A DNA stretch of 64,000 nucleotides, taken from NCBI RefSeq assembly GCF_947501405.1, contig NZ_CANMVK010000003.1, positions 310,001 through 374,000 of the forward strand. The letters are read 5' to 3'. Numbering within the stretch: the first letter of the stretch is position 1; each line of letters begins with the position of its first letter. Shown piece by piece: positions 950 to 44,080 of this stretch. The position numbers and the translations under genes were made by a program. The notes beneath the pieces are model-generated. The model searched no databases. It saw only the letters and a program-made list of their open reading frames with translations, and had not been told where the DNA came from. The DNA is from an uncultured Hoeflea sp. (GTDB taxonomy: Bacteria > Pseudomonadota > Alphaproteobacteria > Rhizobiales > Rhizobiaceae).

Positions 950-2122
950 TCACCAGGCGGCCCGGTAAATGGCGAGCGCATCCGCCTCGCTCACCTCACG
1001 GGGATTGTTTACCAGGAGCCGGGTCTGTTTCATCGCTTCGGATGCCATGTTCGGCAGCGCCTCTTCGCCAATGCCGCAATCGCTGAGCCGCTGCGGCAAA
1101 CCGAGCCGCGCCGACAGATCCGCCAGTCCGGTAATGAAGTCTGCAGCCAGCGCCGGTGAGGCCTCGCCGTTTAGATCCGGAAATGCGAGCGGGGCCAGCT
1201 CCGCGTAACGCCGCCAGCTCTGATTGGCCTCTTCAGCGATGTTGAACTTGAGCACCTCGGGCAACACCAGCGCGTTGGAGAGCCCGTGGGGGATGTGAAA
1301 CATTCCGCCGATCGGATAGGCAAGCGCATGGACCGCTGCCACCGGCGAATTGCCGAACGCCATGCCTGCAAGCATCGAGCCAAGCAGCATCGCCTGGCGT
1401 GCCGTCCGATTTCCCGGTTCGTGCAGCACCACCGTCTCAATGTTTGCGCCCAACAGGCTCATCGCCTCGCGGGCAAGCATCGCCGAGAGCGGATTGTTGT
1501 TGGCGCTTTTGGAGGCATAGGCCTCGATTGCGTGCACCATGGCGTCAATCCCCGTGGCGGCGGTGATCGGCGCAGGCAGTCCCAGGGTCAGGTCCGCATC
1601 GAGCACTGCGACATCGGGGAGCAACAGCGGTGAGGATACTCCGCGTTTTTCATTTTCGCCGACGGTGATAATCGACACCGGCGTGGCTTCCGAACCGGTT
1701 CCGGCCGTGGTGGGAACCAGCACCAGCGGCAGCCGCGGACCCTTGGCATTGCCCACGCCCCAGGCAGCTTCGAGGTCCTCCCCCGATCCGGCAAGCAGGG
1801 CGGCGAGCTTGGCCACATCCATCGACGATCCGCCGCCGAACCCGACCAGTCCGGTGGCACCGGCTGCCCGCGCCATGTCGATGGCAGCATGCAACGTTGA
1901 CAGCGACGGATCGGCCTCGACCGCATCGAAGACCGTGACCCGCGCACCCTGGTTCTCGAGACTGGCGATCGCCGCTCGTTCGAGCCCGAGCGCGCGCAGG
2001 CCGGGATCGGTGACGAAAAGCACGTCCGCGCCCAAAATACCGCCGGTCAACGCGCCCAGTTCAGTGGCGGCGCCGGGCCGGCAAATCAGCCGCGCGGTGG
2101 TGTTGAAAACAAAAGGCTGCAA
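950..2122 (-). CDS. Iron-containing alcohol dehydrogenase
   Basis: A 390-residue group III (Fe-ADH) dehydrogenase. The NAD(P)-binding motif GGGSSMD is at residues 97-102 and PTTAGTGSE at 137-145. Metal ligands are visible in GIDAMVHAIEAYAS (Asp193, His197) and in the later HIPHGLSNALVLP segment. The length matches the family (about 380-390). The enzyme interconverts an alcohol and an aldehyde; the exact substrate is not predictable. It is first in a minus-strand operon with a thioesterase and slyX, and divergent from the nucleoside ABC transporter. Acting on aldehydes produced by nucleoside catabolism is possible but is only inference from position. Confidence 0.9.
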   Translation of the reverse strand: MQPFVFNTTARLICRPGAATELGALTGGILGADVLFVTDPGLRALGLERAAIASLENQGARVTVFDAVEADPSLSTLHAAIDMARAAGATGLVGFGGGSSMDVAKLAALLAGSGEDLEAAWGVGNAKGPRLPLVLVPTTAGTGSEATPVSIITVGENEKRGVSSPLLLPDVAVLDADLTLGLPAPITAATGIDAMVHAIEAYASKSANNNPLSAMLAREAMSLLGANIETVVLHEPGNRTARQAMLLGSMLAGMAFGNSPVAAVHALAYPIGGMFHIPHGLSNALVLPEVLKFNIAEEANQSWRRYAELAPLAFPDLNGEASPALAADFITGLADLSARLGLPQRLSDCGIGEEALPNMASEAMKQTRLLVNNPREVSEADALAIYRAAW

Positions 2123-41178: not shown

Positions 41179-43131
41179 ATGCCGCAGAAAACGTACAAGG
41201 TCCTGAAGGACGCCAAGGCAAGGGCCTTGATCGAAGATGACACCTACCAGAAATGGTACAAGCAGAGCGTCAACGATCCCGAAAAATTCTGGGACAAGCA
41301 CGGCAAGCGGATTGACTGGTTCAAGCCCTATACAAAGGTCAAGAACACCAGCTTCACCGGCAAGGTGTCGATCAAATGGTTCGAGGACGGCCAGACCAAC
41401 GTTTCTTACAACTGCATCGACCGTCATCTCAAAAAGCGCGGCGACCAGGTGGCGATCATCTGGGAAGGCGACAATCCCTATGACGACAAGAAGGTCACCT
41501 ATCGCGAGCTCTATGACCAGGTCTGCCGGCTCGCCAATGTGATGAAGTCCAAGGGCGTCAAGAAGGGCGACCGGGTCACCATCTACATGCCGATGATTCC
41601 CGAAGCGGCCTATGCGATGCTGGCCTGCACCCGCATCGGCGCGATCCACTCGATCGTTTTCGGCGGCTTCTCCCCGGATGCGCTGGCCGGCCGTATCAGC
41701 GACTGCAAATCAACCTTCGTGATCACCGCGGACGAGGGGCTGCGCGGCGGCAAGAAAGTGCCGCTCAAGCACAACACCGATCTGGCCATCGAGATCGCCG
41801 AGCGCGACGGGGTGGTCGTCAAGGATGTGCTGGTGGTTCAGCGCACCGCCGGCAAGATCGACTGGTACGATGCCCGCGACACCTGGTATCATGAGGCTGT
41901 GGCGGCGGCGAAGCCCGATTGCCCGCCGGCCAAGATGAAGGCGGAAGATCCGCTGTTCATCCTCTACACCTCGGGATCGACCGGCAAGCCCAAGGGTGTG
42001 CTGCACACCACTGGCGGCTATCTGGTCTACGCCTCGATGACCCATGAATATGTGTTCGATTACCATGAGGGCGACACCTACTGGTGCACGGCCGATGTGG
42101 GCTGGGTCACCGGCCACTCCTACATCGTCTACGGACCGCTCGCCAATGGCGCCACCACGCTGATGTTCGAAGGGGTCCCGAATTATCCTTCGCCGAGCCG
42201 GTTCTGGGATGTGGTCGACAAGCACAAGGTCAACATATTCTACACAGCACCGACCGCGATTCGCGCGCTGATGGGCGCGGGCGACGAGCATGTGAAGAAA
42301 TCCTCGCGCAAATCCTTGAGGACGCTGGGCTCGGTGGGCGAACCGATCAACCCGGAAGCGTGGGAGTGGTATTACAATGTGGTGGGCGGCAGGAAATGTC
42401 CGATCGTTGACACCTGGTGGCAGACGGAAACCGGCGGGATTTTGATCACGCCGCTTCCGGGGGCGACCAAACTCAAGCCGGGCTCGGCGACACGGCCGTT
42501 CTTCGGCGTCCAGCCGCAACTGGTCGACAGTGACGGCGACGTGCTCGCGGGCACGGCCGAGGGCAATTTGTGCATCACCGATTCCTGGCCGGGGCAGATG
42601 CGCACGGTCTATGGCGATCATGAGCGCTTCATCCAGACCTATTTCTCGACCTACAAGGGCAAGTACTTCACCGGCGACGGCTGCCGGCGGGACGAGGACG
42701 GCTATTACTGGATCACCGGCCGGGTCGACGACGTGATCAACGTTTCCGGTCACCGGATGGGCACGGCGGAAGTGGAAAGCGCGCTGGTCTCCCATGATTC
42801 GGTGTCGGAAGCCGCCGTGGTCGGTTATCCGCATGACGTGAAGGGTCAGGGCATCTATTGCTACATCACGCTGATGGAAGGCCAGCAGGGCGACGATGCG
42901 TTGCGCAAGGCGCTGGTCAACCACGTTCGCCATGAAATCGGACCCATCGCCTCGCCCGACAAGATCCAGTTCTCCCCGGGCCTGCCGAAGACCCGCTCGG
43001 GCAAGATCATGCGGCGAATTCTGCGCAAGATCGCTGAAGACGAGTTCGGCGCGCTGGGCGACACCTCGACACTGGCCGATCCCAGTGTAGTCGACGATCT
43101 GATCGACAACCGTCAGAACAAGAAGGGCTGA
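41179..43131 (+). CDS. acsA: Acetyl-CoA synthetase
   Basis: A 650-residue AMP-forming synthetase converting acetate, ATP and CoA to acetyl-CoA. [11 protein letters not shown] is the P-loop, WWQTETGG the A5 motif, [20 protein letters not shown] with [10 protein letters not shown] the hinge, and [11 protein letters not shown] the C-terminal lysine (usual acetylation site). The length equals E. coli Acs (652). GAGGAGG precedes the ATG. It could use the acetate expected from DeoC and the aldehyde dehydrogenase upstream, but it is 30 kb away from that operon. Confidence 0.96.
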
Positions 43132-43176: not shown

Positions 43177-43213
43177 GAACGCCCGTCCGGAGGCGGCATT
43201 CGGGCGGGCGTTC
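43177..43213. other. Long GC-rich hairpin downstream of acs
   Basis: GAACGCCCGTCCG (43177-43189) pairs with CGGGCGGGCGTTC (43201-43213) over 13 positions with one mismatch or G-U pair and an 11-base loop. On the minus strand a T-run follows three bases later, so it could act as a minus-strand terminator. Confidence 0.5.
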
Positions 43214-43283
43214 CCGCGTTCAAGCACCCGTGTCTTGCAATTGGGCTGTTTCCGATCCAAAGTGACGGTGTCTTTAACGTATG

Positions 43284-43297
43284 AAAGGAGGTGATCC
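43284..43297 (+). promoter_or_regulatory. Extended ribosome-binding site: 14-nt complement of the 16S rRNA 3' end
   Basis: AAAGGAGGTGATCC is the exact reverse complement of the conserved 16S rRNA tail GGATCACCTCCTTT. The GGAGG core is 7 bases before the ATG at 43299. A second in-frame ATG (43281) begins just before it. Confidence 0.75.
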
Positions 43298-43298
43298 G

Positions 43299-43364
43299 AT
43301 GTCGAGTGATTCCCAAATGCCGGTTCGGTCGATCCGGGTCGCCGGTCTTCGGAGCAGCCTCTGA
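43299..43364 (+). CDS. Small peptide of 21 residues, or leader/regulatory RNA reading frame
   Basis: A 22-codon frame (with stop TGA 43362-43364) begins MSSDSQMPVRSIRVAG and ends LRSSL. It is preceded by an exceptionally complementary ribosome-binding site and followed by about 75 untranslated bases and a strong terminator, so it looks like a complete small transcription unit of roughly 200 bases. An in-frame ATG at 43281 would add six residues (MKGGDP). The peptide is basic, with no membrane segment. I do not recognise its family; a regulatory RNA with an incidental frame is the main alternative. Confidence 0.5.
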   Translation: MSSDSQMPVRSIRVAGLRSSL

Positions 43365-43440
43365 AGCACCGGTGAGTTCGGTCAAGCCCCTGATCCGAAA
43401 CAGGATCCGGGCAGGCGTCCAACCGGCGCCGGAATTCACG

Positions 43441-43468
43441 AAGGCCACCCCTTGCGGGTGGCCTTTTT
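43441..43468 (+). terminator. Rho-independent terminator of the small transcription unit
   Basis: AAGGCCACCC (43441-43450) and GGGTGGCCTT (43456-43465) form a perfect 10-bp stem with loop CTTGC, followed by T to 43468. Confidence 0.92.
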
Positions 43469-43606
43469 CATGGATGCCTTGTGTCCCGTGCCTACCGTTC
43501 AGACGTGCCGGAAGCAGAAGGCCGCATTGCAAATCCGCCGATATGGCAGTCTGCCGATATCTCTGGTCTATTAGCGGCACGCGGAAACCGGGCGGCGCGC
43601 GTTCTT

Positions 43607-44080
43607 TCAGGAAGCCGGACAGGTTTTCTTGCGCCGCTTGCCACCTTGATAGGGGACAGCCAGTCCGCTTTCGAGCATGGCTGCGGCGACATCGTGGCTG
43701 TCGGCTTTCAGATCGGCCAGCACGCGGCCGTAGTATTTGCCGCCCGCCACATTGATCAGTTCGACGGTTTTTAACCCCCCGACCAGCCGTTCAAGCTCAT
43801 TGCGCGCGAGATTTGCGGCCTGCCTTTCGCTCAGGCAGCGCGATCGCCGCTCCGGGGTGTCGATGCCGCGCAACCGCACCGAGACGCGGATCGCATGGCC
43901 GGGCCAGGGATGGGCGTCGACCAGCACCGTATCGCCATCGATCACGCGGACCACCTGGGCGGGCACTGGTCCAGGCACATATTTCCACTTCGATTCGGCC
44001 GCCACCACCGGCTGCGGCGCCGCCATCAGGGCGGTTGCAACGCAAAACAGAGCGTAGAAAGCGAGAATCGGTCGGGTCAT
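43607..44080 (-). CDS. Thermonuclease family protein (SNase-like), secreted
   Basis: A 157-residue protein with a signal peptide (ILAFYALFCVATALMAAPQ, cleavage near residue 28) and one staphylococcal-nuclease-type domain. VVRVIDGDTVLVDAHPW and VRLRGIDTPERRSRC carry the calcium-binding Asp and catalytic Arg/Glu; GKYYGRVLADL is the later conserved block. It is probably a periplasmic nuclease or a nuclease-fold binding protein. An 18-base perfect palindrome begins 4 bases upstream of the ATG. Confidence 0.86.
   Translation of the reverse strand: MTRPILAFYALFCVATALMAAPQPVVAAESKWKYVPGPVPAQVVRVIDGDTVLVDAHPWPGHAIRVSVRLRGIDTPERRSRCLSERQAANLARNELERLVGGLKTVELINVAGGKYYGRVLADLKADSHDVAAAMLESGLAVPYQGGKRRKKTCPAS

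Follow-up and report, generated by a model that had tools for sequence, protein, structure and literature searches.

A candidate ribosome-loading small RNA related to CC2171, with an extended Shine-Dalgarno sequence and a short open frame, in Alphaproteobacteria

CC2171 (RF01867) is a small RNA family that Rfam files as gene; sRNA and for which we found no role; its description is not known to mention an open frame. Two papers bear on the family in the parts consulted (PMC11701678, PMC5596092), and one of them lists MH_s33 from Mesorhizobium huakuii 7653R, with a sequenced length of 215, as RF01867 CC2171 (PMC5596092). The relevant passages of that paper treat MH_s33 as an sRNA and leave the frame undiscussed, in which they differ from the account given here. 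SEP1 from S. meliloti, as presented in excerpts of a study of novel small open reading frames (sORFs), is a peptide of 23 aa with a pI of 4.18 that is conserved in Rhizobiaceae, was positive by Western blotting and had the highest translation efficiency (TE) of the 54 novel sORFs (PMC10117765). It resembles the 23-24 aa members of the element described below, from the family of our genome, in length and often in charge. The same excerpts describe rnTrpL/peTrpL as a dual-function sRNA with a translated frame that also comes from this bacterial class (PMC10117765). Unlike rnTrpL, a leaderless attenuator product, the unit studied here has a maximal Shine-Dalgarno (SD) sequence and no conserved downstream gene.

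The stretch of DNA analysed, here called the window, comprises 64,000 nucleotides from an uncultured Hoeflea sp. and contains the acetyl-CoA synthetase gene acs (41179..43131, plus strand; Pfam AMP-binding, E 9.9e-90, and ACAS_N), followed on the same strand by a small unit and then by a convergent gene for an SNase-family nuclease (43607..44080, minus strand; Pfam SNase, E 4e-8). The original prediction, made from the letters of the window, was that this small unit combines a near-maximal SD with a 21-codon frame and with a terminator whose last base is 43468, and all three parts were confirmed in the sequence. The predicted RNA of about 200 nt (43270..43469, plus strand, its 5' end being putative) is supported by a match to RF01867 and by its folding, the 202-nt RNA folding better than 200 of 200 shuffled sequences (z -5.45). 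Within it, the extended SD GAAAGGAGGTGATCC (43283..43297) precedes a frame of 21 codons, MSSDSQMPVRSIRVAGLRSSL, with a TGA stop (43299..43364, ATG at 43299-43301), which relatives support by their openness and their stops. The intrinsic terminator (43441..43468), recognized by reading the sequence and in folds, has a perfect 10-bp stem (43441-43450/43456-43465) and a T-run at 43464-43468; a simple terminator scan did not flag it, we think because the stem overlaps the T-run, and the hairpin is nevertheless present in the folds. A sigma-70 scan flagged no promoter at the small unit, and reading suggests a putative one at 43235..43263 on the plus strand, with TTGCAA (43235), a spacing of 17 nt and a weak -10 box, CAAAGT (43258). 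A TTG box at -58 to -42 from the SD was found in 110 of 201 elements, compared to a mean of 26 in shuffled sequences. A GC-rich inverted repeat just 3' of acs (43178-43216), perhaps the acs terminator, ends upstream of the small unit.

The SD is near-maximal. The original prediction had AAAGGAGGTGATCC (43284-43297) complementing 14 consecutive bases of the 16S rRNA tail, which is borne out, and G43283 lengthens the complement of the tail GGATCACCTCCTTTC to 15 nt, so that the extended SD stops one base before the ATG at 43299. The tail itself was taken from a same-genus genome, the one of 41 assemblies searched in which it was located; it was not found in the other 40, the window's own among them, which we read as rRNA operons probably missing from those sequences. 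A single exact copy of the 14-mer is present in the whole genome (4.45 Mb), where about 0.03 copies are expected by chance (on the basis of 4^14), and up to two mismatches yield 42 sites compared to 18 for the reversed-pattern control, so that near matches by themselves mean little. An in-frame upstream ATG at 43281, which had been listed as a feature of the site, was present in one of 18 aligned sequences and was rejected as a part of the system; in two other aligned sequences an upstream ATG is shifted by one base and lies out of frame. Sequestration of the SD by an internal anti-SD was likewise rejected as a general feature, being limited to certain clades: an anti-SD hexamer lies inside the element in 9 of 17 Rhodobacterales-type members (mean z -2.7) and in all three Bradyrhizobium-type members (mean z -2.4), and in none of the 19 members of the window's MSSDS group.

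To find relatives, we ran the nucleotide and covariance searches that had been proposed together with the original prediction, and these returned relatives across the order and the class as well as homology to RF01867. By DNA similarity, 30 of 61 genomes matched, 18 of the 30 within the genus (our own genome included), and the best match spanned the SD block in all 30; five additional rows were other matches, mostly to the terminator. Pattern searches, using the reversed pattern as a control, matched 18 of 61 genomes (reversed pattern, 0) and, with AAAGGAGGTGATCYRATGTC and up to two mismatches, 163 of 297 genomes of the order (reversed pattern, 4) and 69 of 289 genomes of the class (reversed pattern, 3), in the latter two mostly once per genome, counts that are slightly too high since some two-mismatch matches are second or unrelated sites. 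One such unrelated match inside the class, L110, leads a long frame. The pattern misses variant sites such as the GGAAGGTGATCC form, which occurs in 59 of 60 genomes, and in 57 of 57 near-complete ones, of one genus in the window's family. A scan of named genomes gave at least 119 stretches, and the matches listed include Sphingomonadales, Rhodobacteraceae, Hyphomicrobiales, Acetobacteraceae, Azospirillum and Caulobacterales. Since the elements were found through SD-containing patterns or DNA similarity, the conservation of SD and RTGTC among them is partly circular. The combination of SD and frame, whose conservation outside this strain was central to the original prediction, is present far beyond both strain and genus, and we conclude from sequence comparison that the small unit appears to be a real RNA unit, widespread in Alphaproteobacteria.

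Outside the class, the pattern matched 20 sites in 18 genomes; the occurrence of the element there was rejected on inspection of nine of the 20 sites, these nine proving to be ordinary long frames. We take these nine frames to be 2-oxoacid:ferredoxin oxidoreductase beta subunits. Such beta-subunit genes from other classes of the phylum (L248-L256) have long SDs, for example CAAGGAGGTGATCTGATGTC, that apparently overlap the end of the preceding gene.

The original prediction had no named family for the unit, which needs correction in view of its homology to Rfam RF01867. The window matched the model at 43275-43464 with 35 bits (E 5e-6), below the gathering cut-off of 75 bits, and its whole genome gave a single, full-length match (model positions 1-159, E 1.7e-5). 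Two of 20 diverse loci scored above the cut-off (L065 with 89.6 bits, L081 with 81.1 bits), and in a second set of 20 loci 17 matched at E <= 0.01, six of them above the cut-off. Seven relatives above the cut-off (L065, L081, L068, L098, L101, L104 and L109) can be named as intermediates, sharing with the window the SD block, the short frame and the strand preceding the terminator. Across the class, 45 of 190 genomes matched at E <= 0.01, a few of them over the terminator alone, and seven were above the cut-off; among 14 control genomes there were two matches, to Caulobacter vibrioides and to the distant Deinobacterium chartae, and the one above the cut-off we take to be Caulobacter. CC2171 and the window unit have the same order of parts, a CAAC..GAAAGGAGGUGAUCC.GUGUC block followed by a pairing and then by a terminator, and the pairing in the model, CAUUGUC/GACAAUG, corresponds to the helix P1 described below. 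They differ in that the window, with 35 bits, falls short of the 75 bits required and that Rfam files CC2171 as an sRNA gene. Taken together, score and architecture identify the window unit as an RF01867 homolog outside the curated family, which in turn covers part only of the class-wide set of elements. One genome, G344, has two pattern matches that both fit RF01867, compared to the usual single copy.

We next consider the frame, whose behaviour bears on whether the peptide is the product. In a collection of 203 non-identical elements (one per identical 120-nt core, with at least 120 nt downstream required; L076 and L078 included), the start codon was ATG in 121, GTG in 81 and TTG in one, counts that are partly fixed by the search patterns. 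In every one of the 203, frame 0 ran open for 14 codons or more, as expected of an open frame kept against mutation, and it was closed by codon 36 in 201, while a stop ended frame +1 short of codon 12 in 57 of the 203 and frame +2 in 99; because related sequences are counted separately, we attach no probability to this openness. The two elements with longer frames, L179 (Azospirillum; 59 codons) and L083 (58 codons), have a hydrophobic N-terminal part, unlike the others. The stop was TGA in 128, TAA in 49 and TAG in 26 elements. All 17 Rhodobacterales-type frames stop at codon 19, by TAG in eight, TGA in seven and TAA in two, and 31 of 33 frames of the MSHG group have 18 codons, the stops over the 33 being TAA in 16, TGA in 16 and TAG in one. 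Along close-pair edges, 662 changes were counted in codons 7 to end, with 18 nonsense changes expected and 24 stop-codon switches; the zero nonsense changes seen are not used as evidence because the sequences were grouped by equal frame length. An open frame with stops that interchange at a fixed codon appears to be the trace of translation under selection.

Selection on the peptide itself is a different matter. If the unit were a micropeptide gene, with the peptide as product, a strong SD for high yield and an RNA structure that merely tunes translation, purifying selection should be visible in the codons, and the synonymous bias suggested in the original prediction as a check was present in the window genus but absent in the other seven groups. 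For codons 7 to end, seven groups gave pN/pS values of 0.82, 1.07, 1.23, 0.88, 1.04, 1.14 and 1.27 (MSHG elements of 19 or 20 codons were excluded), with no third-position excess in any of the seven, whereas it was 0.38, with a third-position excess, among 10 distinct and very similar sequences of the window genus (this estimate and the comparison of stop positions used L001 and L004-L019, setting aside L021, a divergent member of the genus, and L020, a near relative). The strongly translated micropeptide that had been offered as one option is thus weakened by seven of eight groups with pN/pS near 1 and keeps its standing in the window genus, where the value allows for a constrained peptide. 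From one order to another the peptides vary widely in length and sequence, eight peptides found no match in NCBIfam, and four searched against Pfam found none there. On the other side, the frame is open with a kept stop, within the window's family the frames of 23-24 aa recurrently encode peptides of the form MSNEIS...QPS, and S. meliloti SEP1, going by excerpts of its description, could be the same locus (PMC10117765). The motif GGAGCAGCCTYC near the frame end encodes EQP in many relatives and lies in another reading frame in the window genus; because of this difference in frame, and because it forms a hairpin, it is at least partly an RNA feature. On balance we consider it unlikely that the peptide is the main product.

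The RNA structure includes a long-range helix, P1, in which codons 2-7 pair with the strand just 5' of the terminator in the single folds of many divergent members, though not of all. In the window, the 5' strand GTGATTCC (43306..43313) covers codons 3-5 and the 3' strand GGAATTCAC (43431..43439) directly precedes the terminator, both strands on the plus strand and both supported by pairing tests, folds of the window and a consensus fold. Over 150 distinct pairs, the own P1 pairing had a mean of -15.2 kcal/mol compared to -9.8 kcal/mol for swapped partners, and in 141 of 150 it was stronger than 30 swaps were on average, a test confined to stems >= 7 and using a terminator finder that missed 18 of 203 elements (its first version, 45 of 203). 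For a permutation test we selected 27 representatives of 183, with 5' strands differing at 5 or more of 14 positions; their own P1 pairing averaged -14.8 kcal/mol, compared to -9.75 (sd 0.59) for permuted partners and -13.1 for the lowest of 20000 permutations. The own pairing beat the row mean in 24 of the 27, ranked in the top tenth in 19 and came first in seven, and was not better than the row mean in the remaining three, while a control stretch about 48 nt upstream gave no pairing signal in the same representatives (-9.5 versus -9.2). P1 thus shows covariation across the class; examples of its pairs are CATTGTC/GACAATG, CATTGCC/GGCAATG (L161) and CATGGTTCAGC/GCTGACCATG, and GAAAG/CTTTC in L130 where a relative, L136, has CGAGA/TCTCG.

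P1 and the terminator also appear in the consensus fold of the window group (18 sequences), together with a hairpin over the frame end, CTTCGGAG-CAGC-CTCTGAAG (43347..43366, plus strand). In this fold, 12 of 59 pairs have changed on both sides in at least one sequence, three pairs of the frame-end hairpin showing such two-sided change in single sequences, and P1 itself hardly varies. The window's own lowest-energy fold (-95.9) has P1 open and the 3' half of the SD paired, and the fold with P1 closed lies 2 kcal/mol above it, which may reflect either a limit of the folding model or a real two-state balance.

Our preferred reading, to which we assign a probability of about 0.45, is that the unit is a structured sRNA on which ribosome loading is selected, usually present in a single copy, homologous to CC2171 and widespread in Alphaproteobacteria. 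The maximal SD would serve to recruit a 30S subunit. Initiation requires the mRNA around the start codon to be single-stranded, and since P1 starts roughly 3-5 nt downstream of that codon, within this stretch, ribosome loading and P1 should be mutually exclusive; initiation would have to melt P1, so that the RNA would alternate between a closed state free of ribosomes and an open one that is translated. In most clades the peptide drifts whereas its start, stop and frame are retained, which makes ribosome occupancy, rather than the peptide, the likely selected output. The loaded RNA could then act in trans, by exposing its 3' strand or its interior, or by reporting or tuning free ribosomes. That it is a class-wide, ribosome-gated mini-mRNA, whose translation is itself the function and whose P1 reads out or buffers free ribosomes globally in trans, we regard as doubtful; an RNA controlling ribosome binding is possible. 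A statement by Schrader et al. (2014) counts against ribosome loading, namely that ribosome profiling shows the regions of Caulobacter ncRNAs, considered as a group, not to be translated (PMC4117421); CC2171 is not named in the part of that paper concerned. With the relatives included, the CC2171 kind becomes a widely conserved small transcription unit whose predicted site for ribosome docking is strikingly complete and whose frame, in most clades, is kept open while its sequence changes almost freely. Should the preferred reading hold, this would be a rare case of ribosome loading on a stand-alone RNA as a conserved function, and it would tie free ribosomes to an RNA conformation in a way that can be tested in Caulobacter and other model bacteria.

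The same SD and helix could also make the RNA a decoy for 30S subunits, a counterpart of 6S RNA in which the maximal SD would hold the 30S subunit and P1 would block initiation, lowering translation capacity or storing subunits. The resemblance to 6S RNA is one of analogy, both being RNAs that mimic an ideal initiation site of a central machine; 6S RNA differs in binding RNA polymerase and in having no frame, and we claim no homology. Complementarity that spans the 16S tail including GATCC argues for a decoy, as does a P1 that starts some 3-5 nt past the start codon, in a stretch that the 30S needs unpaired for initiation, but a pure decoy has no need of an open frame of at least 14 codons with a kept stop, and it would require an RNA abundance near that of ribosomes. 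We judge such a decoy to be quite improbable. A further reading is an ordinary base-pairing sRNA in which ribosome binding merely protects or times the RNA: the filing of RF01867 as gene; sRNA and the independent unit with a terminator hairpin are in its favour, but on inspection we noticed no conserved unpaired stretch, other than the SD tail, that is shared across the class, and the anti-SD hexamers are common in some clades only. We give this reading a small chance.

The neighbourhood of the element argues against a role in cis. Neighbour clusters were built from six-frame translations within 3 kb (about 1.5 kb a side at some loci), and acs and the window nuclease were checked against Pfam while the other genes were named by reading their sequences; on this basis acs lies upstream in 32 loci, including the two Acetobacteraceae loci L117 (Roseococcus) and L160 (Falsiroseomonas), a VUT/YhhQ-like gene lies upstream in 16 and an aminotransferase-like gene downstream in 13, an ArfB-like gene occurs in 14 loci (same-strand and downstream in 13), and a DUF188-like gene occurs in 12 (same-strand in 10). 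Because neighbours differ between orders, a cis role is unlikely, and regulation of a neighbour in cis was rejected as a class-wide explanation. A leader peptide or attenuator for a neighbouring gene would resemble the unit in its short frame followed by a terminator, but we found no conserved same-strand downstream gene of the kind a leader controls; the downstream gene is convergent in the window and differs between orders, which makes this reading very unlikely. The least probable reading is a type I toxin mRNA silenced by 5'-3' pairing, by analogy with the hok fold-back that keeps a toxin mRNA silent: it would account for a long-range 5'-3' helix near the start codon, but the peptides are, by reading, mostly not hydrophobic, and their sequences drift with pN/pS near 1 in most groups.

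Two minor observations concern the surroundings of individual loci. A gene that reads as an ArfB-like ribosome-rescue factor adjoins Rhodobacterales-type loci such as L111, L118 and L120, and in L023 the element has a match to the Rfam sRNA ar14 shortly downstream of it (1763-1884, minus strand).
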